DNA of 64,000 bases from contig SAQE01000002.1 in NCBI GenBank assembly GCA_004020545.1, positions 289,521 through 353,520 on the forward strand, read 5' to 3'. This DNA comes from Mesorhizobium sp. (lineage in GTDB: Bacteria > Pseudomonadota > Alphaproteobacteria > Rhizobiales > Rhizobiaceae). Of the stretch, positions 32,495 through 59,273 are shown piece after piece. The number at the start of each line of letters is the position of its first letter. Within the stretch, counting starts at the first letter, position 1. A program made the position numbers and the translations under genes. Under the pieces are notes generated by a model. It was given only the letters and a program-made list of their open reading frames with translations. It was not told the DNA's origin and made no database searches.

Positions 32495-32616
32495 GGAATA
32501 TCCCCTTCTTGACGAGCATGCCGGAGGCCAAAGCCTGAAAGAGGGCGGCATCCGAATGCGGCCACCCTTTTCGATACGCGGTCTAGGACGTGAACGTGAT
32601 GGTTGCGTGACACCTT

Positions 32617-32679
32617 CCTTCTCCCCTTGTGGGAGAAGGTGGATCGGCGCGCAGCGCCGAGACGGATGAGGGGCGCTGG
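32617..32679. repeat. Palindromic mosaic repeat, left copy of an inverted pair
   Basis: A composite of hairpin CTTCTCCC/GGGAGAAG around CTTGT, a second hairpin TCGGCGC/GCGCCGA, and a tail CGGATGAGGGGCGCTGG. An inverted copy with a different second hairpin lies at 32745-32803. The intergenic stretch 32495-32812 holds no gene besides this pair. Confidence 0.85.
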
Positions 32680-32744
32680 AAGAAATGAGGCGCAATAAAA
32701 TCAAATAATTACAATCGCTTAGGCCATTCAATGCAGCGATCCGT

Positions 32745-32803
32745 CCAGCACCCCTCATCCGACCTCGCTTCGCGAGGCCACCTTCTCCCACAAGGGGAGA
32801 AGG
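32745..32803. repeat. Palindromic mosaic repeat, right copy of an inverted pair
   Basis: Read on the minus strand it repeats the left copy: the CTTCTCCC/GGGAGAAG hairpin, then CCTCGC/GCGAGG instead of TCGGCGC/GCGCCGA, then the CGGATGAGGGG tail with GCTGG. The outer hairpins and tails match closely while the central hairpin differs. It ends 9 bases before the lacI-type stop codon and may also serve as a transcript end. Confidence 0.85.
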
Positions 32804-32812
32804 AGAGGGCGC

Positions 32813-39010: not shown

Positions 39011-41677
39011 TCAAACCCCGGTGACAAACCCGTCCAGCACGCGTTTCTGGCCGGCCTTGTCGAAGTCGATGGTGAGCTTGTTGCCGTCGATTGCCGCGAT
39101 GTTGCCGTTGCCGAATTTCTGGTGGAACACGCGGTCGCCTAGCTTGAAGGCGGAGGGCGTGTCGGCGACGGATTTGGCGACCAGCTCGCCCTCGATGGTG
39201 CGGCCCTTCACGCTCGTCCTGCCGGCGCCATAGCCGCTGTCGGTCTCGCCGTAGCCGATGCGCTCGACCTGGTGGCCGGAACGTGTGCCCCAGTTGCGGT
39301 CGGTCGCCTCGGTGCGGTTCGCCTGCGCGCGCTGCCAGCCGGGCGTCGCATAGGTGTTGGAAAAGCTGCCGGATTTCTCGGCGCCGATATTGTCGAAGCG
39401 CGACGCGCCATAGGGGTTCTGCCGGCCGCCGCCGCGGCCTGAGGCGAATGAGCCACCGCCGTAAGGGTTGCCATAGCCGCCATAGGAATTGCCGCCGTCC
39501 GCGACATCGACATGGGTCTCCGGCAGCTCGTCGAGGAAACGCGACGGGATCGTCGACTGCCACAGCCCATGGATCAAGCGGTTGGAGACGAACCAGATAT
39601 GCAGGTTCTTCTTCGCGCGTGTCAGGCCGACATAGGCAAGCCGGCGCTCTTCCTCCAGGCCCGAGCGGCCGCCTTCGTCCAGCGCGCGCTGATGCGGGAA
39701 CAGGCCTTCCTCCCAGCCGGGAAGGAAGACGGTCTCGAATTCGAGGCCTTTGGCCGAGTGCAGCGTCATGATCGAGACCGCGTCGAGCGATTCGCCTTGC
39801 TCGGCTTCCATGACCAGCGCCACATGCTCGAGGAAGGAGCGCAGCGATTCATACTCCTCCATGGAGCGGATCAGTTCCTTCAGGTTCTCCAGCCGCCCGG
39901 GCGCTTCCGCCGAGCGGTCGTTCTTCCACATGTCGGTGTAGCCGCTCTCCTCGAGAATGGTCTCGGCGAGCTCGGTGTGCGGCTTGGTCTCCAGCGCCTT
40001 CTGCCAACGCTCGAAATTGGCCGCGACCTCGCGCAAGGCGGCGCGCGGCTTCGGCTTCAACTCGTCGCTTTCGGCAAGCGTCGCGGCGGCCTCCAGCATC
40101 GGGATGCGTAATGCCCGCGCCGTATCGTGGATCTGGCGGATGGTGGCTTCGCCGAGCCCGCGCTTCGGCACGTTGACGATGCGCTCGAAAGCGAGGTCGT
40201 CGCCGCTGTTGGCGACGACACGGAAGAAGGCCAGCGCATCGCGGATTTCCATCCGCTCGTAGAAACGCGGGCCGCCGATGACGCGGTAGTTAAGGCCAAG
40301 CGTGATGAAACGGTCTTCGAAGGCGCGCATCTGGAAGGACGCGCGCACCAGGATCGCCATGTCGTTCAGATTGTGCTTCTGGCGCTGGTAGGCCTCGATC
40401 GTCTCGCCGATGGCGCGCGCTTCTTCTTCCGAGTCCCAGGCGGCATGGACATGCACCTTGTCGTCTTCGGGATCGTCGCGGTCGGTGAACAGCGTCTTGC
40501 CGAAGCGGCCTTCATTGTAGGCGATGAGGTGCGAGGCCGCGCCCAGGATGTGGGCGGTCGAGCGGTAGTTGCGCTCCAGCCGGATGATGGTGGCACCCGG
40601 GAAATCCTTGTCGAAGCGCAGGATGTTGTCGACCTCGGCGCCGCGCCAGCCATAGATCGACTGGTCGTCGTCGCCGACGCAGCAGATGTTTACGGTGGCG
40701 CGGGTTTCGGCCGATCGCGCCTTACCCTCCCCTAGATGGGGAGGGTCGTCGCGAAGCGACGGGGAGGGGTGACCGGCGCCGGCGCTGCCACCCCCACCCG
40801 CGCCGCTCCGCGGCGCGACCTCCCCCATCGAGGGGGAGGTAGGTCTTTGCGCCAGCAAGCGCAGCCACATGTACTGCGCGGTGTTGGTGTCCTGGTACTC
40901 GTCGACCAGGATGTATTTGAACTTGCGGTGATAGTCCTTCAGCACGTCCGGATAGGCGCGGAAGATGCGGATCGGGTGGTAGAGCAGGTCGCCGAAGTCG
41001 CAGGCGTTCAGCGTCTGCAGCCGCTCCTGATAGGCCTTGTAGAGCTGGCGGCCCTTGCCGTTGCCGAAGCTGCGCGCATCGCCTTCCGCAATCTCGTCAG
41101 GACCGAGGCCCTTGTTCTTCCAGTTATCGATCATCTGGGCGAACTGCTTGGCCGGCCAGCGCTTGTCGTCCAGCCCTTCGGCCTGGATGATCTGCTTGAT
41201 CAGCCGCACCACGTCGTCGGTGTCGAGGATGGTGAAATCGGATTTCAGCCCGGCAAGCTCGGCATGGCGGCGCAACAGCTTGACGCCGATCGAATGGAAG
41301 GTGCCGAGCCAGGGCATGCCTTCAACGTTGCCTTCGCCGATCAGCAAGCCGATGCGCTGCTTCATCTCGCGCGCGGCCTTGTTGGTGAAGGTCACGGCGA
41401 GGATCTGCGAGGGGAAAGCCCTGCCCGTGGCAAGGATATGGGCGATGCGCGTGGTCAAAACCCGCGTCTTGCCGGTGCCGGCGCCGGCCAGAACCAGAAC
41501 CGGGCCTTCGGTGGTCTCAACCGCCAGCCGCTGCTCGGGATTGAGGCCCTTCAGATAATCGGGCGCACTGTTTTGAGCGCTGCGGGCCGCCATGGCGCGC
41601 GCGGCAATACCGGACGGGGCCGCGGGCCGCGCATTCGGTTCGTCAAAGAAGGGCATGTCTTCCGAAAACCCGGACAT
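39011..41677 (-). CDS. uvrD: UvrD/PcrA-type DNA helicase with an apparent repeat-derived insert
   Basis: SF1A 3'-5' helicase used in excision repair and replication restart. Walker A AGAGTGKT is at residues 64-71, motif II DEYQDTN near 260, motif III VGDDDQSIYGWRGA, and motifs V-VI MTLHSAKGLEFE and RLAYVGLTRAKKNL. The C-terminus has a glycine/serine-rich linker and a tudor-like end (LGDRVFHQKFGNGNIAAIDGNK). At 888 residues it is long for the family. Between motifs II and III, about residues 279-318 are a proline/glycine-rich stretch encoded by the palindromic repeat at 40724-40840, where relatives have only a short turn. Confidence 0.93.
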   Translation of the reverse strand: MSGFSEDMPFFDEPNARPAAPSGIAARAMAARSAQNSAPDYLKGLNPEQRLAVETTEGPVLVLAGAGTGKTRVLTTRIAHILATGRAFPSQILAVTFTNKAAREMKQRIGLLIGEGNVEGMPWLGTFHSIGVKLLRRHAELAGLKSDFTILDTDDVVRLIKQIIQAEGLDDKRWPAKQFAQMIDNWKNKGLGPDEIAEGDARSFGNGKGRQLYKAYQERLQTLNACDFGDLLYHPIRIFRAYPDVLKDYHRKFKYILVDEYQDTNTAQYMWLRLLAQRPTSPSMGEVAPRSGAGGGGSAGAGHPSPSLRDDPPHLGEGKARSAETRATVNICCVGDDDQSIYGWRGAEVDNILRFDKDFPGATIIRLERNYRSTAHILGAASHLIAYNEGRFGKTLFTDRDDPEDDKVHVHAAWDSEEEARAIGETIEAYQRQKHNLNDMAILVRASFQMRAFEDRFITLGLNYRVIGGPRFYERMEIRDALAFFRVVANSGDDLAFERIVNVPKRGLGEATIRQIHDTARALRIPMLEAAATLAESDELKPKPRAALREVAANFERWQKALETKPHTELAETILEESGYTDMWKNDRSAEAPGRLENLKELIRSMEEYESLRSFLEHVALVMEAEQGESLDAVSIMTLHSAKGLEFETVFLPGWEEGLFPHQRALDEGGRSGLEEERRLAYVGLTRAKKNLHIWFVSNRLIHGLWQSTIPSRFLDELPETHVDVADGGNSYGGYGNPYGGGSFASGRGGGRQNPYGASRFDNIGAEKSGSFSNTYATPGWQRAQANRTEATDRNWGTRSGHQVERIGYGETDSGYGAGRTSVKGRTIEGELVAKSVADTPSAFKLGDRVFHQKFGNGNIAAIDGNKLTIDFDKAGQKRVLDGFVTGV
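40724..40840. repeat. Inverted pair of palindromic mosaic repeats inside uvrD
   Basis: Left unit: hairpin ACCCTCCCC/GGGGAGGGT (40724-40746) then CGTCGC/GCGACG (40747-40761) and a GGGAGGGGTG tail. Right unit, inverted: CACCCCCACC-like tail, hairpin CGCGCCGC/GCGGCGCG (40799-40817), then ACCTCCCCC/GGGGGAGGT (40818-40840). This is the same three-module plan as the intergenic pair at 32617-32803, but here it is read through in frame by the helicase gene. Confidence 0.85.
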
Positions 41678-41857
41678 CGCCCCGAATGTAGTGATTCGGC
41701 AGCGAAAGGCCAGAAGCGTCTACGTTTTGTTCCATTTTTGCGCTGCTCTGGTTCGCTTGACAGGCGCGGCCGGGGAGGGAAAGCTGCCGGCAGGGCAGGG
41801 ACGGCACGCCGTTGCCTGAGAGGCGCCGCGCGGCGCAACAGTCGAAGGAGTATCATC

Positions 41858-44176
41858 TTGGCTGTCACCATCACCTCCCTCGTCCTCTTCCTCATCGGCT
41901 TGGTTCTCGGCGGCGGCGGCATTTGGTTGGTCTCGCTGGGCGGCAGCTGGTACTACGTGATCGCCGGCCTTGCTTTCCTGGTCACCGCGTTTCTTATCTT
42001 TCGGCGCAAGTCGACATCGCTCTGGCTCTACGCGGCATTCGTGATCGCCACGCTGTGCTGGGCTGTCTGGGAGATCGGCTTCGACTGGTGGCAGCTCGCT
42101 CCGCGCGGCGGCGTCATCGTGTTGATCGCGCTGTGGCTGCTGACGCCGTGGGCGCGCCGCGGATTCACCGGCCCCGACGGACGGGCACCGCTGATCCTGG
42201 CGGTGTTGGCCTCGCTCGCGGTCGCGGGGTACTCGATGACAGCCGATCCCAAGGACATCGGCGGCACGCTGGGTTCCGACAAGGTGGCGCCGACGGCCAA
42301 TCTCGGCGGCGACATGCAGGCCGGCGAATGGCATTTTTACGGCCGCACGCCGTTCGGCCAGCGCTATTCGCCGCTCGACCAGATCACGCCCGACAATGTC
42401 GCCAAGCTGCAGCCGGCCTGGACCTATCGCACCGGCGATGTGAAAGGCCCCAACGACATCGGCGAGACGACCTATCAGGTGACGCCGCTGAAAGTTGGCG
42501 ATGCGCTGTTCATCTGCACGCCGCACAATTTTGCCATCGCCATCGATGCCGCGACCGGTAAGGAGAAATGGCGCTATGATCCGAAGGTCAAGCTCGACCC
42601 CGACCGCCAGCATCAGACCTGCCGCGGTGTTTCCTATTACGCCGATGCCAAGATCGCGGCCGGACAACCATGCGCCGCGCGTGTCTATCTGCCGACGTCC
42701 GACGCGCGTCTGATCGCGCTCGATGCCGCGAGCGGCCAGGTGTGTCCGTCCTTTGCCCAAGGCGGGACGCTGAACCTGCTCGCCAACATGCCCTATCCGA
42801 AGTCGGGCTACTATTATTCGACCTCGGCGCCGCTGATCGTCGCCGGCAAGATCATCGTCGGCGGCGCGGTCAACGACAATTATTCGACCGAGGAGCCTTC
42901 GGGCGTCATTCGCGCCTATGACGCCGGCACCGGCGCGCTGTTGTGGAATTGGGATTCCGGCAATCCGGACCAGACGACGCCGCTGCCGGCGGGGCAAAAC
43001 TACACCAACAACTCGCCCAACATGTGGTCGACCGCGAGCGCCGACGAGAAGCTCGGCCTGCTCTATGTGCCGCTCGGCAACCAGACGCCGGACCAGCTCG
43101 GCATGGGCCGCAGCGCCAATGTCGAGAAGTTCTCCTCCTCGATCACGGCGCTCGACCTCAACACCGGGCAGTTGCGCTGGGTTCGCCAGACAGTGCATCA
43201 CGATCTGTGGGACATGGATGTGCCGGCCCAACCGACGCTGGTCGACATCACCTCGGCCAGCGGCGCGATCGTGCCGGCGCTGGTCGGCCCGACCAAGCAG
43301 GGCGATCTCTATGTGCTCGACCGGCGCACAGGCGAGCCGATCGTTCCGGTGAAGGACGTGCCGGCGCCGGGTGGCGCCATCGAAGGCGACCATGCATCGC
43401 CGACGCAGCCGGAATCGGATCTGTCGTTCAATCCCAAGCCGCTGACCGGCGCCGACATGTGGGGCGTCACCATGTTCGACCAACTGGCGTGCCGGATCGA
43501 GCTCAGGAAGCTGCGCTATGAGGGGCGCTATACGCCGCCCTCGCTGCAGGGATCGCTGATCTATCCCGGCAATTTCGGCGTCTTCAACTGGGGCGGCGTC
43601 GCGGTCGACCCGGTGCGTCAGGTGATGTTCGGCATGCCGACCTATCTTGCCTTCACTTCCAGGCTTGTACCCCGCGCGGAGGTGCCGCCGCCGGGCGACA
43701 ACACCAAAGGCAGCGAACAGGGGCTCAACCGCAACGAGGGCGCGCCTTACGCGGTGGTGATGGGACCGTTCCTGTCGCCGCTAGGCATTCCCTGCCAGGC
43801 TCCGCCCTGGGGCTATGTCGCCGGCGTCGACCTCAGGACCGGCCAGATCGCCTACAAGCATCGCAACGGCACCGTCTACGACATGACGCCGCTGCCGCTG
43901 CCGTTCAAGGTCGGCGTTCCAGGCATTGGCGGGCCGATGGTCACCGCCGGCGGCGTGGCCTTCCTCGGCGCCGCGGTCGACGATTATCTGCGCGCCTATG
44001 ATCTCACCACCGGCAGGCAGCTCTGGCGGGCAAGGCTGCCCGCGGGAGGGCAATCGACGCCGATGACCTACACGGTCGCCGACGGCCGCCAGTTCGTTGT
44101 CATCGTCGCCGGCGGCCACGGCTCGGTCGGCACCAAGCCGGGCGATTATGTGATGGCCTACACGCTGCTGAAATAG
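41858..44176 (+). CDS. gcd: Membrane-bound PQQ-dependent glucose dehydrogenase
   Basis: Quinoprotein that oxidises aldoses such as glucose in the periplasm and passes electrons to ubiquinone. The N-terminal ~135 residues hold about five membrane helices; the rest is an eight-bladed beta-propeller with repeated W-motifs and PQQ-type segments (TVHHDLWDMDVPAQP, GDHASPTQPESDL, VPGIGGPMVTAGG). The start is TTG at 41858 with GAAGGAG 7-8 bases upstream, giving 772 residues, normal for this enzyme. The open frame upstream is antisense to uvrD. No pqq genes are in the window. Confidence 0.92.
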   Translation: MAVTITSLVLFLIGLVLGGGGIWLVSLGGSWYYVIAGLAFLVTAFLIFRRKSTSLWLYAAFVIATLCWAVWEIGFDWWQLAPRGGVIVLIALWLLTPWARRGFTGPDGRAPLILAVLASLAVAGYSMTADPKDIGGTLGSDKVAPTANLGGDMQAGEWHFYGRTPFGQRYSPLDQITPDNVAKLQPAWTYRTGDVKGPNDIGETTYQVTPLKVGDALFICTPHNFAIAIDAATGKEKWRYDPKVKLDPDRQHQTCRGVSYYADAKIAAGQPCAARVYLPTSDARLIALDAASGQVCPSFAQGGTLNLLANMPYPKSGYYYSTSAPLIVAGKIIVGGAVNDNYSTEEPSGVIRAYDAGTGALLWNWDSGNPDQTTPLPAGQNYTNNSPNMWSTASADEKLGLLYVPLGNQTPDQLGMGRSANVEKFSSSITALDLNTGQLRWVRQTVHHDLWDMDVPAQPTLVDITSASGAIVPALVGPTKQGDLYVLDRRTGEPIVPVKDVPAPGGAIEGDHASPTQPESDLSFNPKPLTGADMWGVTMFDQLACRIELRKLRYEGRYTPPSLQGSLIYPGNFGVFNWGGVAVDPVRQVMFGMPTYLAFTSRLVPRAEVPPPGDNTKGSEQGLNRNEGAPYAVVMGPFLSPLGIPCQAPPWGYVAGVDLRTGQIAYKHRNGTVYDMTPLPLPFKVGVPGIGGPMVTAGGVAFLGAAVDDYLRAYDLTTGRQLWRARLPAGGQSTPMTYTVADGRQFVVIVAGGHGSVGTKPGDYVMAYTLLK

Positions 44177-58730: not shown

Positions 58731-59066
58731 AAAAAGGGGGAGAAGGTGGAGGTTTCTGTTGCCAGGTACCTCCGAACCCCGCCTAGAAGTGCGAACCTCT
58801 AGGGCTTGATTTGAAGCGTTCGCACTGCATTAAGCAGCGAGACGAGCTTCCGCATAGTTGTCGTTGGCAACTATAAGTTTAGCCCGATGACGGTGGTACA
58901 ATGCCGAGCAAAAGTACGATCTTTACACCTTCGTCGATCCTATTTCGCCCCCAGCAAAAGCCGCTCCTTCATCCAGAGCGGTTTTTGGTGGAGGCGCCGG
59001 GTACCGCCCCCGGGTCCGAACGGCTTATTTCATCGCCTGTTTATCGCCATAGTCGGTCAAGCCGAC
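58731..59066 (-). ncRNA. ssrA: tmRNA, circularly permuted two-piece form
   Basis: Rescues stalled ribosomes. On the minus strand the tag ORF at 58868-58830 encodes ANDNYAEARLAA and a TAA stop. The coding piece starts GGGGGCG at 58952; this pairs with CGCCTCC just before the ACCA that ends the acceptor piece at 58986. The acceptor piece lies upstream, beginning near a GTCGG/CCGAC hairpin (59052-59066), with a possible -10 CTATAT at 59074-59079. Bases 58953-58985 are the spacer removed in processing. The coding piece ends in a hairpin and T-run near 58731. The acceptor's T-loop reads GGCGGTA rather than a TTCRA form. Confidence 0.92.
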
Positions 59067-59273
59067 GAAAAGAATATAGGGACCGATCATGGAAAATGGA
59101 AGGCCAAACCGGCACTTGTCCCCGGCGCCAAACTCGACAGCCGAGGGTTGACTTGCGCGCTTACTCAATCGAAGCTCCGCCGGCGATGAGGAATCTCTGA
59201 CCTAGCGCACAGGTTGCGCGGCGCGCCACAAGCCTCATCGACCGGATCCGTGGCGCCGACGAGGGGAAGTTTG

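Follow-up and report, generated by a model that had tools for sequence, protein, structure and literature searches.

The turn between helicase motifs II and III of UvrD in Mesorhizobium and many related genera is best explained, with a probability of roughly 0.7, as a site of recurrent in-frame palindromic insertions, with selection for an open frame and recombination of the inserts between species. The turn, which joins the motif II helix to the motif III strand, would be a tolerant surface site that repeatedly gains dispersed GC-rich palindromic repeats, each made of short hairpin modules in inverted pairs; such an insertion would persist only with the frame open, which would account for sampled alleles that are multiples of three and stop-free, and it would be read as a disordered spacer rich in Pro, Gly, Ser and Ala. 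Once in place, the inserts may shorten, extend or gain more repeats, and whole inserts may move from one species to another through homologous recombination over short tracts, for which the conserved codons on either side would serve as anchors, an exchange perhaps promoted by breakage at the hairpin.

The UvrD gene and its insert

The stretch analysed, hereafter the window, covers 64,000 nt of Mesorhizobium sp. (assembly GCA_004020545.1, contig SAQE01000002.1, positions 289,521–353,520, forward strand). Its UvrD (Table 1) belongs to the PcrA/UvrD helicases, with both the N- and C-terminal helicase domains present (PF00580 with 288 bits and PF13361 with 228 bits in the profile search) and the helicase motifs legible and intact, the TIGR01073 score of 765.6 bits being under the equivalog cut-off of 911.2. 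The closest named relatives among the best 80 of 576 confirmed matches are from Mesorhizobium, the top one (L080) at 98%.

Table 1 Features of the uvrD locus, the intergenic repeat and the GlyS loci (positions are those of the window unless given otherwise)
Feature	Position	Strand	Basis
UvrD/PcrA superfamily 1A helicase, 888 aa, intact ORF	39011..41677	-	ORF translation and domain profiles
DEYQDTN, residues 259-265, which we take to be helicase motif II; upstream anchor of the insertion site	40883..40903	-	translation
VGDDDQSIYGWRGA, residues 334-347, presumably the helicase motif III region; downstream anchor	40637..40678	-	translation
Whole loop segment, 53 codons, residues 277-329	40691..40849	-	alignment to 3lfu
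Inverted pair of palindromic modules (type W insert), in-frame residues 280-318	40723..40841	.	arm comparison and by eye
Stem-loop CCCTCCCC-TAGAT-GGGGAGGG	40725..40745	.	by eye
Stem-loop GTCGC-GAA-GCGAC	40748..40760	.	by eye
Stem-loop GCGCCGC-TCC-GCGGCGC	40800..40816	.	by eye
Stem-loop CCTCCCCC-ATCGA-GGGGGAGG	40819..40839	.	by eye
Intergenic inverted pair, related but of a different subfamily	32616..32804	.	arm comparison
GlyS beta subunit loci L240 and L307-L336	L240: G000:C133:158471-160780

The loop was placed by the alignment to 3lfu, in which residues 276 and 330 of the query correspond to residues 237 and 242 of the chain; the stretch between residue 276 (LLA, of the motif II helix) and residue 330 (of the motif III strand) counts 53 residues against 4 in E. 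coli UvrD, as anticipated in the earlier note, which had put the insert at a turn with few residues in that protein. A structure model of the window's UvrD, predicted from 31 sequences (its own and those of 30 named loci), reached a pLDDT of 46.8 and a pTM of 0.31 and was set aside, so that it plays no part in this placement. The arms 40723–40748 and 40816–40841 are 81% complementary over 26 nt, and the ORF contains no stop codon across the repeat. The palindromic pair claimed in the earlier note at 40724–40840, read through as about 40 residues, is thus confirmed in its coordinates, its frame and its extent. As read from the gene, the loop would be translated in vivo, and it is presumably disordered and neutral. 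Its non-repeat tail, SAETRATV, is found again in alleles of type C (the types are described below) and, slightly altered, in the type W alleles L080 and L096.

The insert and the intergenic pair share a three-module layout, although the identity of the two that had been claimed for 32617–32803 did not hold, the latter representing another subfamily (38/51 nt, E 8e-4). On the other hand, 57 nt of one arm of the intergenic pair match at 57 of 57 positions within the uvrD insert of another genus (L190 in genome G160), so that repeats of this family do enter the UvrD loop.

It may be added that an open frame of 1146 aa on the plus strand (40736–44176) begins within the repeat, antisense to uvrD, and continues into what by eye is an apparent PQQ-dependent dehydrogenase; its first, uvrD-antisense part is probably non-coding. 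The sole Rfam match in the window at gathering thresholds is a tmRNA, an alphaproteobacterial permuted one at 58745–59105 on the minus strand.

Distribution, kinds and dispersed copies of the insert

The named set consists of the best 80 of the 576 confirmed matches, 72 of them titled Mesorhizobium, and is therefore biased towards close relatives. All 80 loops are multiples of three and free of stops, ranging from 9 to 96 residues (the length of L112 is overstated by the anchor pattern), with about 9 residues in L105 and L156 and 21 in L135; the last looks, from its sequence, like a deletion within type C. In a same-genus set of 37 loci, sharing some genomes with the named set, 36 are in frame, the exception being L036 (genome G018) with an NN and a frame shift. 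A poly-C/poly-G run occurs at the hairpin region of uvrD in L031 (genome G001), and both irregularities probably reflect failure of sequencing or assembly at the hairpin.

A wider draw from family f1 of the genome search, presumably the Rhizobiaceae in the GTDB sense, comprised 121 genomes, and the loop was located in 116 of them (of the remaining five, one was unmatched, one had a match starting past the loop, two were not retrieved and L399 could not be located). All 116 loops are multiples of three and all 116 lack a stop; 51 have at least 25 residues, and there are 47 distinct lengths up to a longest of 102, leaving aside the one-residue lengths of L359, L361, L362 and L363, which the anchor pattern returns for a short loop. 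Frequent short states in the family are QRPKGxPQ-like and QETGAPGQK. Outside the family the loop has 4–13 residues in the 12 located of 13 loci (L050 unlocated), and in the class-wide draw of 72 genomes all 57 alphaproteobacteria outside the family with both flanking matches listed have gaps of at most 12 nt. The insert thus characterises part of a single family.

Concerning the insert types, the 81 rows formed by the window and the named set divide into 42 of type B, 14 of C, 12 of A, four of W—the window's own insert among them—two of X+B, one C-deleted and six others, and L188–L191 and L207 are composites of several elements. Types A, C and W are members of repeat families with dispersed copies in these genomes, whereas B is not, giving two matches per Mesorhizobium genome searched, with its own locus included where the genome bears B (40 of the 54–64 candidates scored). 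Different repeat families occupy the site throughout the genus and in many related genera, and a single recent insertion in one species, as read from the earlier note, is not supported. That note had also proposed looking for the insert in other species and other genes; loops of at least 25 residues occur in 77 of the 80 named uvrD loci, and in-frame repeats of this kind in GlyS, XdhC, CobN and an ABC ATPase. The note had further named a constant length or a lack of repeat character in relatives as evidence to the contrary; the lengths vary as given above and repeat character is common, albeit weak in type B.

The hairpin core CTCCCN{3,8}GGGAG is present three times in the window against 0.74 expected, three being reached in 2 of 100 shuffles. 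The longer form CTCCCCN{3,7}GGGGAG counts 255 in the window's whole genome against 1 in the reversed control, and 37–222 against 0–3 in eight other genomes; two of these eight, G163 and G046, hold many copies of the core, yet have short uvrD loops. When the insert was compared by blastn with the genome it comes from, 40 of 105 candidates being scored, there were 29 matches, including itself and some double-strand duplicates, and besides the insert four nearly full-length ones at 72–77%. The type C repeat was also found on rhizobial plasmids, in 97 records, most of the matches in the 40 records listed lying over no feature or over unannotated sequence.

Stems were counted in inserts of at least 25 residues and compared with shuffles and with the neighbouring flanks. 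Those of at least 8 bp occur in 36 of 78 inserts of the genus against 3.4 in shuffles and 1 of 78 flanks, and in 21 of 51 inserts of the family against 2.2 in shuffles and no flank. At 7 bp the contrast is weaker, the flank control being high too (52/78 inserts and 23/78 flanks in the genus, 29/51 and 16/51 in the family).

As to the frame, when dispersed copies are aligned to A, C or W, only 8 of the 26 alignments keep an open frame in the register of uvrD, a small null with partly overlapping alignments; set against 80 of 80 and 116 of 116 this points to the removal of frame-breaking insertions.

Insert type, gene tree and rival explanations

On the uvrD tree of 81 genes, built without the loop, the seven types require 33 changes against a shuffled mean of 36.2 (a value as low in 11 of 200 shuffles); of the individual types, A and B do not cluster, while C and W do so slightly (22 and 24 of 500 shuffles as low). 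The glyS tree, an independent one with 29 genomes (L335, whose contig ends, was omitted from the glyS trees), gives 15 changes of uvrD type against 16.1 shuffled (58/200). The type is therefore nearly unlinked to the gene tree, its phylogenetic signal being almost lost with some clustering left.

The half-gene test, in which a tree from one half of uvrD is scored on the other, used 66 core rows; L145–L159 were excluded from it as well as from the association and near-flank comparisons. The changes per copy amount on average to 0.65–0.71 for SNP alleles of 10–14 copies against 0.92–1.00 for type A and 0.77–1.00 for type C, and to 0.37 for SNP alleles of 28–33 copies against 0.66 for type B, so that on both trees A turns over more than the majority of equally frequent SNP alleles, and C does so on one of the two. 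Association between type and SNPs (59 rows; A, B and C only) stays close to that of the shuffles whatever the distance, even within 15 bp, where there are four columns per side, whereas SNP–SNP association (66 core rows) lies above the shuffled level at all distances.

The absence of linkage to flanking SNPs at even the shortest distances would suit independent site-specific insertion, in which every genome draws on the repeats dispersed in it, the loop would be a hotspot of the mobiliser and allele exchange would be unneeded. Full-length dispersed copies of A also speak for it, reaching 85% in genome G012 and 84–85% in G021, and so do the composites, which show serial additions. Since the uvrD A alleles are 82–97% alike among themselves, so that dispersed A falls within their range, and since one half-length dispersed piece is 88–93% like W (dispersed copies from five genomes), some insertions could indeed be independent. 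As a general account it nevertheless seems unlikely, since inserts of the same type have their non-repeat head and tail codons in common, and the W alleles L001, L080 and L096 are 93–96% alike over 159 nt including the non-repeat ends, compared with at most 79% to near-full-length dispersed copies from the same five genomes.

GlyS speaks against it as well. Its beta subunit contains three in-frame repeat sites in 30 genomes of the genus, at residues 294 (filled in 2 of 30), 406 (13 of 30) and 631 (7 of 30, one being cut short before the site), and the empty sites are kept in close relatives. All 13 filled alleles at site 406 share one replacement of the neighbouring codons: four codons present in the 17 empty alleles, for GADP or something very close to it, are missing, and the patchy presence consequently does not come from simple excision. 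Site 406 takes 8 changes on the glyS tree against 9.7 shuffled (87/500 as low), site 631 being more clustered with 4 against 6.5 (5/500).

Fourfold-degenerate sites give a mixed picture, the divergence in the insert and the flanks being, respectively, 0.115 and 0.265 for type A, 0.073 and 0.245 for W (three pairs), 0.206 and 0.258 for C, and 0.342 and 0.271 for B, where it is higher in the insert. From the junctions and alleles compared we infer that inserts have probably been exchanged between species by recombination, by a route that would run through the flanking codons. In means over the 66 core rows, the near flanks are no more alike in same-type pairs of A, B or C, so that no recent transfer tract is directly visible; searches for UvrD in phages and plasmids did not point to any vehicle for the alleles.

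With regard to further genes, 20 loci were picked for long open frames among the matches listed, and in six of them the repeat lies inside a conserved gene, three of these being GlyS and the others XdhC (L248), CobN (L251) and an ABC transporter ATPase (L253), with one in-frame insert each and with families confirmed by Pfam. The other 14, by eye upstream extensions, antisense frames or ends, were not counted. It should also be mentioned that GlyS has a non-repeat hypervariable stretch at residues 584–597 (L315, L317, L325, L328 and L330), whose alleles are common to distant branches (L315 and L317); this sharing suggests that loop shuffling may be general in the genus.

A domesticated element, the hairpin or spacer of which is functional (in mRNA attenuation or partner binding) and owes its variety to diversifying selection on UvrD, would be consistent with the long loops in 77 of the 80 named loci, with the turnover of types A and C described above and with the arms of type C. 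The full-length C inserts fold into one long hairpin, and the arms of 10 of them change in step in six cells (0 of 500 shuffles as high), compared with 0–3 cells when slid by 1–3 columns; counted by pairs the covariation is only 3 (80/500). It fits either selection on the hairpin or correction of the arms by template switching. Differences at codon positions 1, 2 and 3 are 0.044, 0.030 and 0.251 in the flanks of the A set, which are strongly constrained, against 0.117, 0.066 and 0.139 in the type A inserts, which are hardly so; type B inserts keep some asymmetry (0.177, 0.118 and 0.310). This small asymmetry in A, the species managing with about 9 residues and the like elements in GlyS, XdhC and CobN make domestication decidedly unlikely.

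An ordinary hypervariable low-complexity linker, repeat-like by resemblance only, suits type B, in which stems of at least 8 bp are found in 4 of 42 inserts against 2.3 expected and which may be an ordinary fast-evolving linker, and the GlyS stretch at 584–597 provides a parallel. For A, C and W it is refuted by their resemblance to dispersed repeat families, by long stems about tenfold above shuffles and by the 57/57 nt match to the intergenic repeat, which makes it very improbable as an explanation of the whole. A sequencing or assembly artefact or a pseudogene, brought to mind by the hairpin trouble in genomes G018 and G001, is refuted by the open alleles in all 80 named, independent assemblies and by the strong purifying selection on the flanks.

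Known systems and significance

The Rickettsia palindromic elements (RPE) were reportedly described by Ogata and colleagues in 2000 and 2002. The UvrD insert resembles them, as the earlier note had rightly remarked, in being a palindromic repeat pair in frame at a tolerant loop, the likeness being one of behaviour; it is RPE-like also in its size of 119 bp together with its dispersal in the genome, and in that both uvrD and GlyS combine in-frame inserts with empty sites in relatives. In the portions of the sources drawn upon here, RPEs are given as about 105–150 bp long and as lying both between genes and in frame in conserved protein genes (PMC2229807, PMC10969869). Unlike RPEs, a single UvrD site is filled genus-wide and in many related genera by different types, and these types scarcely follow the gene tree.

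Among intragenic REPs, those of the GTAG and CGTC kinds are stated, in the part of Di Nocera et al. 2013 (PMC3733652) used here, to occur in frame in genes for DNA synthesis and repair, with a UvrD/REP helicase expressly included; two Xanthomonas have unlike REPs in recB at nearly one position, while in other genes the sites differ according to those authors. The same part has CGTC REPs without a dedicated transposase in S. meliloti and A. tumefaciens, puts forward a mutator hypothesis for REPs in repair genes and, as regards the main text as distinct from the supplementary gene lists, does not name Mesorhizobium (PMC3733652). A repair helicase of the UvrD type carrying an in-frame repeat is common to both cases. 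Unlike GTAG/CGTC REPs, the unit here is a three-module inverted pair. By eye no clear tag was seen: the CGTC at 40747–40750 adjoins a module of the window but overlaps the next stem, and the outer stems in types A and C have no GTAG/CGTC tag next to them.

Like a REPIN, the insert pairs hairpin units in inverted orientation and has many dispersed copies. It differs from the REPIN/RAYT system in that neither the Y1 transposase (PF01797) nor a RAYT was found in the window's genome, so that mobilisation by a RAYT is unsupported; PF01797 is present in one of 23 same-genus genomes, the window's own included. RIME, the A/B/C palindromes of Sinorhizobium and Bru-RS of Brucella are mosaic palindromic repeats of the same order and are known as intergenic, whereas the UvrD insert is inside a gene. 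In the mitochondria of Nematomorpha, as far as the consulted part of the source goes, long inverted repeats occur in coding genes with function kept (PMC6649704); there both arms encode conserved protein, whereas the UvrD palindrome is an added spacer.

In-frame palindromic repeats as such are thus already known from Rickettsia and from the REPs of repair genes, within the parts of those sources used. No report of the repeat site in Mesorhizobium uvrD was recognised from the titles and abstracts of the openly licensed literature searched, and within it four things are new: how often a single site has been hit, how varied the families are, the trio of sites in GlyS, and the nearly lost linkage to the gene tree.

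Tentatively, recurrent in-frame insertion with exchange could be carried further: in-frame palindromes may be self-made recombination hotspots in core genes, the extruded hairpin being cut and the break repaired from the DNA of another species, which would turn the insert into a trans-species allele cassette with almost no linkage left to the surrounding gene; we regard this as possible but doubtful. With the loop it can be tested directly whether coding-DNA hairpins drive the exchange of genes between species, and also whether repeats in repair genes change the mutation rate, as suggested in 2013. The dozens of natural alleles and the empty GlyS sites, moreover, provide a test of spacer tolerance in a helicase and a tRNA synthetase. 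For these bacteria it would mean that repeat DNA enters core genes as a steady process at fixed sites and not as a rare accident.
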